Shown in pieces: positions 40,551-45,868 of a stretch of DNA of 46,146 nucleotides. Position 1 is the first letter of the stretch, and the number at the start of each line of letters is the position of its first letter. The notes beneath the pieces were generated by a model, which saw only the letters and a program-made list of their open reading frames with translations, had not been told where the DNA came from and ran no database searches. Origin of the DNA: an uncultured Flavobacteriaceae bacterium (lineage in GTDB: Bacteria > Bacteroidota > Bacteroidia > Flavobacteriales > Flavobacteriaceae); NCBI GenBank assembly GCA_938010765.1, contig CALLVX010000087.1, forward strand, positions 1 through 46,146, given 5' to 3'. The position numbers and the translations under genes were made by a program.

Positions 40551-40711
40551 TGAGTACCCCTACATTTTGCCAGTTACACAGTTCATAAGTAGACTTCTAT
40601 ACATCACCTGCCTTCAATAATAGAAAACTTTAAAAAAGGTTTTTAGCGTGTATGTAAGCTATATTAGACCTTATTTAGCAAGCAAATATTAAATAGATAA
40701 AACAAGAATTC

Positions 40712-43135
40712 ATGGGTGACATTGCTAAAGCCAAACGGATAATTAATATAGCAAAAAGAACCGGTAAGCTTCTTAATTTGAGCAATTTGGAATTGACCGG
40801 TGATGATATTGCCACTTTATTGCCAACAATCAAGGAGAGCATGCCCAATCTTGAAAAACTTGATTTAGGAAATAATAGAATAGCTGAACTACCACCCGAA
40901 ATAGGGGGCCTTACGAATCTTAAAGAACTTAGATTAGCTAAAAACGAACTAACTAAAGTGCCTCCCGAAATTGGGAATCTAAAAGCGCTAGAGAACCTGT
41001 TCTTGAAAGGTAACCGACTAGCAACGGTGCCTCCCGAAATTGGGAACCTTACGAATCTTAGATTGTTAGGCTTAAGTGCAAACAAGCTCACTACCCTCCC
41101 TACCGAAATTGGGAACCTTAAAAAACTTGAAACATTCGGTGTGGCTGATAACGAGCTCACAACTCTCCTCCCCGAAATAAAGGAGCTTGAAAAGCTTACG
41201 ACTTTATATGCAAATAATAACAAACTCACAACTCTTCCCCCTGAAATTGGGTCTCTAAAAGCGCTAGAGAAACTGTATTTGGGAAAAAACCAACTGGCAA
41301 CGGTACCTCCCGAAATTGGGAACCTTACGAATCTTAAGGTATTCTTTGTTGGGGAAAACCAATTTTCACATATACCTAAGGAAGTAATTGCGTTTGAGCA
41401 ACTGGAATGCCTTGATTTTCGGGGGAACAAACTTAAGGAGCTTTTACCCGATTTGGTTAACCTAAAAGATCTTAAGGGTTTGTATTTGGGAGATAACCTC
41501 TTAGAAAGTATCCCCGAAGTGGTGCTACAACTCACCGGTCTTGAAGAACTTGATTTATCAAAAAACAAATTGAAAAGCGTGAGCAAGGACCTAGCTAGGT
41601 TACAAGAACTTCTCATATTAAAATTAAATGAAAACGAACTAAGGGAACTACCACCGGAGATGGTTGGTTTGGTGAATCTTCAAAAACTTGAATTGGGTGG
41701 TAACAAATTCGTAGTTGTGCCGAATGTAGTACTGGAATTAAAGGGTCTTGAGAATCTTTCTATGCAGAAAAACGGGATGACCGATGTGCCAAAAGCAATA
41801 AAAGACCTCGCCAAAATTTCAGTATTGGATGTAACGGGTAACCCCCTAACCGCCAAAGCAATGATCCGCTTGGATGATACTTTTGGGACAAAGGCCAAAT
41901 TTAACAGGGCCCCTTTTAGGTCAAACCCAAAGCTTTTGAAGACATTGGATGTTATTTATCCTAAAAAAGGTGTTTTTAGTAGAGGCAAAGCTGCAGGTAA
42001 GGCCGCTAAAATAGATGCTTTGATTGTTCCCGGGCCCTTTACCGATGAAGAAGGTAAAATAGTGAACGCTCAACAAGTAGTGTATAGTCTTTTAAGGGGT
42101 ATACCTCTCGAAGGTCCAACGAAAAATGAGCTGTATTTCGAATCCTATAGAGACCTTGTAGAGCCTGTAATGGAGAACAAAACATTGCAAGAAAAAAAAA
42201 ATGATTTAGGAAAAATAGCCACTTCGTTGGGGAATTGTGAAACTCCGGTTTTGAATTTGTTGATGCAGACCTATGTTGGGAAATATATCTATAAGGACAA
42301 AGAGGCTCGTCCTTCTAATTTTGATGCAATAGTGGCGAGAGAAGCCTTTGAAAAAGCAATAGTCAGTAAACTATCGAATGCCGTAGACGAAGACGGAGAA
42401 AAAATCATGCCCAATAATGAAAAGGTAGAGCAGGTACAAGCGCTTGTAAATGCTTTTTTTTCAAAAGATGCGAGTACGAATGAACACAATAAGTTGAAAG
42501 TGGCTTTTCCCGAAGGAGGGCCCGATAAGCTTCCGAACAAAACTTTAAACGATGAATACGGGTATAAAATAGTAAAACCTGCCTTGGTAAGGGAAGCTGC
42601 AAAGATACTTTGCCAAACGGATGCAAATGGCACACTGGAAACAAATGATGATGGTGCCTATGTTTTTGACCCGAAGAAACTAGAGAGAATCGTAAATAAG
42701 TACAAAAATGGATTGGGAATTGTAAATCCTAGGGACAACAGAGTAGCAAACTATGAAAGTAAGATTCAAGAAGTAATGATGAAAGAAGAAAATCAGATTC
42801 TTTTTGTAGAGATCGATGAAGAGGGTGTTCATGAATTACTCGACTTTAATGCACAAAAAGAGGAACTGGAAGATATACTGTACGGGGTTGCCGATCAAGA
42901 GGTAGATGCAGAATATGAAAAATATTTTGCGGAGCAAACAGCCAAAATAGAAAAATTGGCCAACCGCTTGAACGGCAAACCTGAAGAAGCTGCTGAAAAG
43001 GATCAGACCTATAACCTCTCGTCATTTACTTCTGCCTTAAATGAGGGCCAAAGAAGCCAGGAAACCTCTCAAACTGCCCAAGTTTCTTCAAGCCCTCGGC
43101 AAAATCGAACAAATTCTCAAGGCCGCGGAATATGA
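40712..43135 (+). CDS. leucine-rich-repeat protein with an unrecognised C-terminal domain (paralogue A)
   Basis: An 807-residue protein without a signal peptide or membrane segment. Residues about 1-45 form a cap. About 14 LRRs of 23 residues follow (about 46-390, consensus LxxLxLxxNxLxxLPPEIGNLxx). A C-terminal domain (about 395-740) is shared with the next gene, and the Ser/Gln/Arg-rich tail ends in GRGI. Conserved points in the domain are 'FNRAPF', 'GPFxDxEGKIxNAQQV', 'LGNCxTPVL' (Cys509), 'IMPNxEKxEQVQ', Cys634 and 'ERIVNKYKNxLG'. Four LRRs are duplicated as a 276-bp block. The plan recalls LRR effectors such as IpaH/SspH, but the CxD motif of the NEL E3 ligase domain is not seen. Function unknown. 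Confidence 0.85.
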   Translation: MGDIAKAKRIINIAKRTGKLLNLSNLELTGDDIATLLPTIKESMPNLEKLDLGNNRIAELPPEIGGLTNLKELRLAKNELTKVPPEIGNLKALENLFLKGNRLATVPPEIGNLTNLRLLGLSANKLTTLPTEIGNLKKLETFGVADNELTTLLPEIKELEKLTTLYANNNKLTTLPPEIGSLKALEKLYLGKNQLATVPPEIGNLTNLKVFFVGENQFSHIPKEVIAFEQLECLDFRGNKLKELLPDLVNLKDLKGLYLGDNLLESIPEVVLQLTGLEELDLSKNKLKSVSKDLARLQELLILKLNENELRELPPEMVGLVNLQKLELGGNKFVVVPNVVLELKGLENLSMQKNGMTDVPKAIKDLAKISVLDVTGNPLTAKAMIRLDDTFGTKAKFNRAPFRSNPKLLKTLDVIYPKKGVFSRGKAAGKAAKIDALIVPGPFTDEEGKIVNAQQVVYSLLRGIPLEGPTKNELYFESYRDLVEPVMENKTLQEKKNDLGKIATSLGNCETPVLNLLMQTYVGKYIYKDKEARPSNFDAIVAREAFEKAIVSKLSNAVDEDGEKIMPNNEKVEQVQALVNAFFSKDASTNEHNKLKVAFPEGGPDKLPNKTLNDEYGYKIVKPALVREAAKILCQTDANGTLETNDDGAYVFDPKKLERIVNKYKNGLGIVNPRDNRVANYESKIQEVMMKEENQILFVEIDEEGVHELLDFNAQKEELEDILYGVADQEVDAEYEKYFAEQTAKIEKLANRLNGKPEEAAEKDQTYNLSSFTSALNEGQRSQETSQTAQVSSSPRQNRTNSQGRGI
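40957..41390 (+). repeat. 276-bp duplicated four-LRR block inside LRR gene 1
   Basis: A segment around 40970-41080 recurs 276 bp downstream (for example CTAAAAGCGCTAGAGAA at 40979 and 41255, and CGAAATTGGGAACCTTACGA near 41034 and 41310). 276 bp is exactly four 23-residue repeats, so the reading frame and repeat phase are kept. Confidence 0.8.
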
Positions 43136-43138
43136 ATA

Positions 43139-43798
43139 TAATACCTATGCTTAGAACGCTATAGTTCAGTTCATTCGCACCGTTGTATAGGAAGTGCTTT
43201 GTCTAAGGCTCGCGCTCTGATGTTTTATGGGTGCTCATTTTCTGCGTTTTATATCCCTGAGATATAGCGCAACTAAGAGCAAAATTGCCTTTTTAGAGAG
43301 ATACCAATTATTTTTTACTCAAGTGACAGGGAATCTTATTTAGTGCAAAACCTGCCCTAAAGATGGAAGAAAGGATGCTTTAATGAAACGTGTTCAAGTA
43401 CCTACAGGTTCTTGACATTGGGGGTAAACCCTGTTTTTCTATACTACAATAGGTGAGGCCCTTAAGGGTTGTGACGTATGCACTGAGACTTGGTTGCGAT
43501 AGTCTAAAATACATAAGAGCCCGTGCGGTATCGGTTTAGCACTGCTTCTGTAACAGGTAAAATATGATGCGGCGATAGCTTTTGAAGTAATCTTAAGCTG
43601 TCATGACCAACTGCCAACCGTTGTGATTTTCAATGCATAATCCAATCTTGATCTGTGGTAACTAAAAAAGATGTTGCAAGGGCCCTAAAAAAGGAACGTA
43701 GGTTGTTTTTGGATGCCGATTTCGTCTCTTTAGCAAAAAAAGGTTGCTCAAAGATACCAGTGTAGGCAAAAAGCAACGGTCAGGTAAAAGGAATATAC
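43139..43798. other. 660-bp gap between the two LRR genes
   Basis: No open frame of supportable size is present. A small palindrome (TATATC/GATATA, 43250-43266) and the second copy of the intergenic repeat (43418-43452) are the only structures I can point to. The remaining 346 bp before the second LRR start is long for a leader and shows no clear -7 box. Confidence 0.5.
43418..43452 (+). repeat. intergenic repeat copy 2 (upstream of LRR gene 2)
   Basis: TTGGGGGTAAACCCTG followed by T5 and TACTACAATAGG, aligned without gaps to the copies at 40516 and 46032. The hairpin is weaker here (GGG/CCC). It lies 381 bp upstream of the second LRR gene. Confidence 0.6.
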
Positions 43799-45868
43799 AT
43801 GGGAGATAAAGTAAAGGCAGAGTTTAATATTGGATTATCGGAAGGGCTAGGAAGGGGCGAATTGGATTTGAGCGGTTTAGCGTTGACCAATACTGATTTA
43901 GTTGAACTAATGCCACTGATTCAACGGGCGCTGCCTGATCTTAAAGTCCTAAACTTGGATGATAACAAACTATCGGAACTACCTCCGGAACTAGGCAATT
44001 TTACAGCGCTTACCGCACTTTCAGTAGAGAGGAATGAACTTACTGGCGTACCCGAAGAAATAAGTAAGCTTGAAAAATTGGAATTTCTGAATTTAAAGAA
44101 TAACCGATTAACCAATATGCCGAATGGAATTTGGATCATTGAAAATCTAAAATCTCCCGATTTAAATAATAATCCCTTATCCCGGGAAACATGGGATTCG
44201 TGGTTCAACACTTGGGAAAATAGAGAAAAAGCAGAATTCAGAATTGGTTATGCAGAGGCGCTAGGGCAGGGCGAATTGGATTTGAGTGGTTTAGGGTTAA
44301 CCAATACTGATTTAGTTGAACAAGTGCCACTAATTAAACGGATGCAGCCTAGTCTTAAAATTCTAAACTTAAATAATAACAAACTATCGGAACTACCACC
44401 AGAACTAGGCGATTTTACAGAGCTTACCGCACTTTCAGCAGAGAATAACGAACTTACTGGCGTATCTGAAGAAATAAGTAAGCTTGAAAAACTGGAGTTT
44501 CTGAATTTAATAGATAACCGATTAACCACTTTTCCTGAGGGAATACGTGAACTTCAGAGTCTTGAATCATTTTATGCAAAGGGTAACCCCTTATCAGCGC
44601 AAACAATGATTTTTTTAAATCGCACTTTTGGTAATAGAGCCAAGTTTAACAGGGCTCCTTTTGAATTGAATACCCATGGTAAACGAGTATTGAGGAAAAT
44701 TTATGGAAAAAAGGAAACTAAAGTCATTGCTTCTAAGATAAACGCCTTGGATATGACCGGACCTTTTCGTGATGGAGAAGGGAAAATTCTCAATGCCCAG
44801 CAGGTAGCGTATAGTGTTTTATCAAAAGTACCTCATAGAAAGGCCAATAAGATGTATTTTGAAGCTGTCAAGGACCTGTTAGCTCCTGTGCTGAATGAAT
44901 CGTCTTCGGCAGAGGAGAAAGAAGATAAGTTGCATGTAATGGCTTTTGCCTTAGGGAACTGTGCAACTCCGGTATTGGATTTATTGGTTCAAGCTTATAT
45001 TGGAAAATATAAGGATGAAAGCCAAGAAGATCGTCCTAAAAACTATGATGCCCTAGTAGCAAGGGAAGCCCTGGAAAAAGAAATTGATAGTAAGTTGGCC
45101 AATGCAACTAACGAAGCAGGGGTGGATATTATGCCCAATTTAGAAAAGATAGAACAGGTTCAAGGGCTTACAAACGCTGTGTTTCTTAGAGGTGGCCGTT
45201 CGATACCATTCAATAAGGTCAAGATAGTGTTTCCAAAAGGGGAGAAACCTAGGAGACTTCCCGGTAAAACAGCAGACACTAGATTTTCATTTAAAGAAGT
45301 AAGTCCGGTGTTGGCCACGGCCTTTGCAAAACTGGTCTGTAGAACAAATGCCGACGGCGCCCTTGAAACGAATGCCAAGGGGCACTATGTCTTTGATCCA
45401 CAGAAAATGGAAAGGATCGTAAATAAGTACAAAAATGCCTTGGGGGATACCAGTATCCGGGAGGCTTTGGTAGGAAAGTATCAGGAAGATATAAAAGGTG
45501 TTTTGGAGCTTAACGATGAACTTTACCTGTTTTTTGACAAGGAAGAGGTGGCAAATTTGTATAAACTTCCAGAGCAGCAAGAAGATCTGAGAGAAAGGTT
45601 GAATGAAGTTTCGGATGAAGAAGTTACCCGGGAATACGAGAAATTTGTAGAAGAAAAGACAGCGAAAATCGCAGCAGTACTCATACAATATACGGACAAG
45701 GAGATCATACTTCCTGAAAAGGGGCAAACCCAGGGGGAAACTTCCGATTTCTTAAGACTTACCACCCCTAAGAACGAAGAACAACGAAGCCATAGAACCT
45801 CGCAGACTGCCACCGGTGCTTCTAGTTCCCGCTTAGGCCGATCAACATCTCGGGGTCGTGGCATTTGA
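43799..45868 (+). CDS. leucine-rich-repeat protein with an unrecognised C-terminal domain (paralogue B)
   Basis: A 689-residue paralogue of the preceding gene. The N-terminal half is a tandem duplication of a 138-residue module, each a cap plus about four LRRs ('GELDLSGLxLTNTDLVE', 'NKLSELPPELG', 'EEISKLEKLEFLNL'). The unrecognised domain follows with 'FNRAPF', 'GPFRDGEGKILNAQQV', 'LGNCATPVL' (Cys388), 'IMPNLEKIEQVQ' and 'LVCRTN' (Cys514). The tail is 'SSSRLGRSTSRGRGI'. The two Cys are the only ones in the protein. No signal peptide is present. The shared tail could be an export or targeting signal, but that is speculation. Function unknown. Confidence 0.85.
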   Translation: MGDKVKAEFNIGLSEGLGRGELDLSGLALTNTDLVELMPLIQRALPDLKVLNLDDNKLSELPPELGNFTALTALSVERNELTGVPEEISKLEKLEFLNLKNNRLTNMPNGIWIIENLKSPDLNNNPLSRETWDSWFNTWENREKAEFRIGYAEALGQGELDLSGLGLTNTDLVEQVPLIKRMQPSLKILNLNNNKLSELPPELGDFTELTALSAENNELTGVSEEISKLEKLEFLNLIDNRLTTFPEGIRELQSLESFYAKGNPLSAQTMIFLNRTFGNRAKFNRAPFELNTHGKRVLRKIYGKKETKVIASKINALDMTGPFRDGEGKILNAQQVAYSVLSKVPHRKANKMYFEAVKDLLAPVLNESSSAEEKEDKLHVMAFALGNCATPVLDLLVQAYIGKYKDESQEDRPKNYDALVAREALEKEIDSKLANATNEAGVDIMPNLEKIEQVQGLTNAVFLRGGRSIPFNKVKIVFPKGEKPRRLPGKTADTRFSFKEVSPVLATAFAKLVCRTNADGALETNAKGHYVFDPQKMERIVNKYKNALGDTSIREALVGKYQEDIKGVLELNDELYLFFDKEEVANLYKLPEQQEDLRERLNEVSDEEVTREYEKFVEEKTAKIAAVLIQYTDKEIILPEKGQTQGETSDFLRLTTPKNEEQRSHRTSQTATGASSSRLGRSTSRGRGI
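43808..44635 (+). repeat. 414-bp tandem duplication inside LRR gene 2
   Basis: Two in-frame modules with a period of exactly 414 bp (138 codons; for example GCAGAGTTT at 43817 and GCAGAATTC at 44231). Nucleotide identity is still high, with stretches such as GGCGAATTGGATTTGAG shared exactly, so the event is fairly recent. Confidence 0.85.

Follow-up and report, generated by a model that had tools for sequence, protein, structure and literature searches.

Tandem leucine-rich repeat proteins of a Flavobacteriaceae bacterium belong to a family with a constant two-cysteine domain whose predicted fold comes nearest to the NEL ligase

The window analyzed here is a stretch of 46,146 nucleotides from an uncultured Flavobacteriaceae bacterium (contig CALLVX010000087.1 of assembly GCA_938010765.1), in which two genes for leucine-rich repeat (LRR) proteins, A and B, lie in tandem on the + strand. 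Gene A (40712..43135) is an ATG-start open reading frame (ORF) of 807 aa and gene B (43799..45868) one of 689 aa, and both encode an LRR array, a constant domain, and a tail. LRR profiles match the N-terminal parts of the two proteins (Pfam LRR_8, E = 4.7e-51 for A and 7e-18 for B). In A, the N-terminal cap and LRR array span residues 1-395 (40712..41896), as given by the Pfam LRR matches and the mapped domain border, while the constant domain spans residues 396-749 (354 aa, 41897..42958); in B, the latter comprises residues 282-627 (346 aa). Alignments place the identity of the two constant domains at 48-49%. An earlier note, made from the letters of the window alone, had described neighboring LRR paralogues that join variable repeats to a constant, cysteine-bearing module, and these ORFs, profiles, and alignments confirm it: the LRR array is variable between members and the C-terminal domain is constant.

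The domain contains only two cysteines, C509 and C634 in A (42236..42238 and 42611..42613, spacing of 125 residues) and their counterparts C388 and C514 in B (spacing of 126); the earlier note had given the same two spacings. Numbered on the B domain, these are C107 and C233. C107 opens an invariant CxT motif (Cys388-x-Thr390 in B, or C107 and T109; 44960..44968), which is followed by an acidic pair running from Glu449 (position 168, always acidic) to the invariant Glu452 (position 171; 45143..45154) and then by C233 (45338..45340), which lies directly after a predicted helix at 222-232. Across 21 domains from three genera, with identity down to 23%, the invariant columns are L60, P64, C107, T109, E171, and C233. 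When 31 proteins are aligned and a degenerate copy (L034) is excluded, each of these columns is retained in 30/30 undamaged domains, column 168 has 29 Glu and a single Asp, and a Thr occurs at C233+2 in 24/30. This count takes in four near-identical proteins (P0006-P0009), one protein without LRRs (P0017), and one cut by the end of its locus (L029), and since family members are related, the counts across them are not independent. The presence of both cysteines in every undamaged domain of an alignment reaching 23% identity indicates conservation beyond chance, and the loss of these residues among homologues, which the earlier note had considered, is not what we observe. P0017, encoded on an 8.2 kb contig, is a 364-residue protein consisting of the domain and a tail; as it starts at the domain's own Met, it may represent a truncated gene or a gene-call effect.

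A and B are more than a pair, as they belong to a multigene family. Nine family matches occur in the window's genome (G000, 5.06 Mb, 87% complete). Five genes are intact, namely A, B, and one each on contigs C172, C27, and C151; contig C134 (L004, 3374 bases) carries a broken copy beside the C-terminal part of another that is cut by the contig end, and contigs C33 and C94 end inside further copies. The distribution of the family is narrow. It occurs in 4 of the 10 genomes of the window's genus, its own included, and the same four are the carriers among 60 relatives. A 397-genome sample of Flavobacteriaceae likewise contains four carriers (the window's own genome, G009, and one genome from each of two other genera, in each of which one genome was examined), and in a 395-genome sample of the phylum, the window's genome is the only one. 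The total is six carrier genomes in three genera. Protein searches of 5.8 billion sequences led to 19 ids, of which the window's genome accounts for five; the two proteins of a relative's record (L010) are those read from G008, a genome of the same genus as the window's. With no Pfam or NCBIfam model covering the constant domain and a source-given name for only 4/19 ids, it is easy to mistake members for ordinary LRR proteins. A search of viral contigs with one peptide pattern found no relatives.

Genes of this family undergo both duplication and decay. At three loci, intact genes have shorter copies consisting of LRRs alone in their vicinity, four in all, and a copy in G464, recovered as a match with internal stop codons, has lost the first cysteine. 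In a tree of 26 domains, the branches of which are without support values, A and B cluster with the C172 copy, P0003, and P0004, while the C27 and C151 copies of the same genome are placed elsewhere. In both G004 and the window's genome, a family gene adjoins the same sugar-kinase-like gene (92% identity across 232 residues), and the gene order around it is conserved; the loci concerned are L036 (6802-11226) and L044 (13239-13985) with L009, the end of the window genome's contig C33. In G004, two LRR-only copies follow at this locus.

In the AlphaFold2 model of the B domain, a helical N-terminal part (model residues 1-270, 44642..45451), predicted to be NEL-like, holds Cys107 in a loop between two helices and is followed by a separate helical C-terminal part (model residues 271-346, 45452..45679). 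In NELs, the Cys resides in an N-terminal part and E2-ubiquitin is bound by a C-terminal thumb (PMC12506513, in excerpt), of which the C-terminal part of the B domain is a possible counterpart. For both structure models, a NEL E3 ligase takes first place in the structural comparison, and no chains other than those of NELs cover the constant domain. By this ranking, the NEL is the closest of the known folds and should not be counted as rejected. The statement in the earlier note that the domain is not a clear NEL because it lacks the CxD pattern holds at the level of the motif and of profiles, none of which sees a NEL, but it has to be set beside this structural ranking.

Our leading interpretation, to which we assign a probability of about 45%, is that the A/B family consists of LRR-guided, NEL-like cysteine ligases acting on LRR-selected eukaryotic proteins. 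The LRR array would select target proteins of a eukaryotic host or prey, and Cys107 would form a thioester with ubiquitin, or a similar modifier, taken over from a host E2. The acidic residues at 168 and 171 would stand where NELs have DxxE, and Thr109 would occupy the place of the CxD Asp, in which case the transfer step would differ from that of a classical NEL. Cys233 may be a family-specific second active-site or structural residue, and the basic tails described below could direct some members to the eukaryotic nucleus.

Several results weigh against a NEL-like ligase. When 20 domain sequences are searched at E values of 10 or below, 22 families are matched by at least one of them, and the NEL profile PF14496 is not among these; the positive control, a PF14496 search, did find NopM in pNGR234a. 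With nine NEL sequences for comparison, NopM of a rhizobial symbiont among them, hhalign gives the domain a probability of 0.2-0.3%, both against NopM alone and against the nine sequences. A profile alignment to NELs anchored on the Cys is not significant at any of six settings, as anchor pairs scoring as well as the Cys pair make up 8% of all anchor pairs at the loosest setting and 21-64% otherwise. The Foldseek matches of the models are likewise not significant. There is hence no detectable sequence similarity to NELs, and CxT replaces CxD in all 30 undamaged domains, the Cys being kept and the Asp absent. The type III secretion system (T3SS) core protein FHIPEP (PF00771) is found in 0/6 carriers, two of which are incomplete (87% and 81%), with control genomes positive. 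Formal membership in the NEL family therefore fails on the profile, the CxD motif, and type III delivery. PF14496 also matches 0/295 genomes of the class, but as it matches 0/14 control genomes too, absence is not demonstrated by this search.

Profile searches with A, B, and the domain alignments returned nothing convincing, with one set of results comprising the best 25 of 43 families, and the confident match to an established domain that the earlier note had allowed for did not appear. DUF1722 (E = 4.7e-4) and NNH2 (E = 0.0018) each match a single one of 20 domains as one weak row, and ribosomal protein S15, the best PDB row for the domain, reaches only 0.045; none was retained. The lack of a profile match to NEL or anything else and the insignificance of the Foldseek matches, together with the invariance of Cys, Thr, Glu, and Cys, are also what a thiol enzyme unrelated to NELs would show, one in which Cys107 and Glu171, and perhaps Cys233, sit in a new helical fold and modify or cleave LRR-selected targets by other chemistry. 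We regard this as rather unlikely, given that, for two models, NEL structures take the top rank and no others cover the domain.

A different alternative is that the proteins work inside the bacterium, for instance in defense or regulation, with the basic tails binding nucleic acid instead of import factors. No signal peptide is seen in A or B, as judged by eye only, and the family genes have ordinary chromosomal neighbors, both of which are compatible with such a role. The absence of a T3SS marker from the six carriers points in the same direction, as does that of the type VI secretion protein VipB, found in 0/12 genomes. A contractile sheath (PF04984) is not consistently present, being matched, mostly below cut-off, in 4/6 carriers versus 3/6 non-carriers of the genus; with matches over the cut-off in just 2/12 genomes and similar counts in the two groups, there is no association. 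As cargo of type IX secretion, A and B would carry a C-terminal sorting domain and a signal peptide; neither is seen by eye, and no such Pfam family is among their matches. No secretion locus common to the copies was found in 20 scanned window proteins and the neighborhoods of the copies. FHIPEP occurs in 1/12 genomes, that of a non-carrier of the same genus (G002:C1:385977-388309, L067), as two matches to the C-terminal half (positions 324-656), one of them in a 1357-residue open frame. Against an intracellular role, the nearest fold family acts on eukaryotic ubiquitin (PMC9320238, in excerpt), gene turnover resembles that of effector families, and a PADLOC search for defense systems gives nothing better than E = 0.03. 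Although none of these points is decisive, we find an intracellular role distinctly unlikely. A non-enzymatic adaptor, whose cysteine pair would serve only to stabilize the fold through a metal or a disulfide, would suit the presence of two invariant cysteines rather than the one catalytic Cys of NELs, but it is improbable: no invariant His or extra Cys is left as a metal ligand, disulfides are unlikely in a cytoplasmic protein, and Thr109 and Glu171 are as invariant as the cysteines, which looks more like an active site.

The tails of A (residues 750-807, 42959..43132, Ser/Arg/Gln-rich) and B (residues 628-689, 45680..45865, Ser/Arg-rich) are without a canonical nuclear localization signal (NLS) pattern. 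In 27 members, counted without P0007-P0009 and fragments, the last 45 residues have a mean net charge of +5.9 and a mean Ser+Pro content of 10.7, whereas 118 control ORFs, all 200 aa or longer and encoded elsewhere on these stretches, average +0.55 and 4.2. An NLS-like pattern is present in 15/27 family tails, 15/118 control tails, and 8/348 inner segments of family proteins, a distribution that suggests nuclear import for part of the family. By eye, many members from across the genera of paralogues have in their last 45-60 residues, before the basic tail, a short motif resembling L-x-x-[ML]-x-x-P-x-N, which could be a sorting or binding signal. The effector or recognition role proposed in the earlier note is in keeping with these tails in about half of the members, with gene turnover and narrow distribution, and with the invariant Cys/Thr/Glu/Cys set, whereas effector status itself and delivery are only inferred.

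A broader proposal is that thiol ligases guided by LRRs have a second branch, to which this family belongs: its domain would be NEL-like but with a CxT-Glu-Cys core in place of CxD, would have arisen in Flavobacteriaceae that have no type III system, and would use another delivery route, with eukaryotic nuclei as part of its destinations. We consider this possible, if doubtful. If a NEL-like domain does exist in Flavobacteriaceae without a type III machine, the hijacking of ubiquitin would be either older or a reinvention, and the question would arise of the means by which such bacteria get their proteins into eukaryotic cells.

Within B, the N-terminal cap and first LRRs are present twice, through an internal duplication that looks recent; blastp of B against itself aligns residues 3-119 (43805..44155, +) with residues 141-257 (44219..44569, +) at 71% (70.9%) identity across 117 residues. 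The GC contents of A (0.400) and B (0.410) are not odd for the window (0.411). A 313-aa open frame on the - strand (40675-41616 of the window), antisense to the LRR part of A, is most likely a by-product of repeated codons. Upstream of the family genes, no flavobacterial promoter pattern was found, and no 8-mer is shared by more than 4/14 upstream regions.

Among known systems, the family can be compared with three. Nucleomodulins are bacterial proteins acting in the host nucleus, and the NLS-like basic tails of 15 members recall them; unlike nucleomodulins, A and B are without a canonical NLS pattern, and nuclear entry of family proteins is only suggested. The Xanthomonas LRR effectors XopL, XopAE, and XopAC have similar LRR arrays, and their NCBIfam models match A at E = 1e-44 to 2e-36. 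The best stretches, however, lie in the LRR part, the constant domain is unmatched, and the curated cut-offs are missed (at most 153 bits versus 450 to 600).

The closest comparison is with the NEL family (PF14496), which includes IpaH, SspH1, SspH2, SlrP, and NopM. Beyond the differences in sequence and CxD motif, the family domain has a second invariant Cys, whereas the ligase activity of NopM depends on Cys338 (PMC3355095, in excerpt), the only Cys in its sequence. NELs are described, in the excerpt of PMC9320238, from Gram-negatives that inject by type III secretion (such as Salmonella, Shigella, Sinorhizobium, and Ralstonia), whereas this family resides in Flavobacteriaceae whose six carriers have no T3SS marker; our literature search, which left most subscription journals outside, found no paper on NEL-type proteins in Flavobacteriaceae. 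In common with NELs, the family joins an LRR array to a C-terminal Cys domain, here predicted to be helical with the Cys in a helix-loop-helix, and a genome can hold several copies that differ in their LRRs; NELs are also the nearest solved structures for two models. An acidic-x-x-Glu downstream of the Cys may be a further likeness: DxxE occurs at Cys+60 to +70 in 9/9 NELs and acidic-x-x-Glu at Cys+50 to +76 in 21/21 family domains, the two being equated by eye and not by superposition. The acidic pair of B is at Cys+61 and Cys+64, and a NEL Asp at Cys+60 lies as far from its Cys as the catalytic acid Asp397 does from Cys337 in IpaH9.8 (PMC7728815 and PMC9320238, in excerpt). In IpaH3, polyubiquitination depends on the CxD Asp, whereas E2-ubiquitin can be hydrolyzed without it (PMC9320238, in excerpt). 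With a Thr at this position in every undamaged copy, the family offers a natural test of the role of that Asp.
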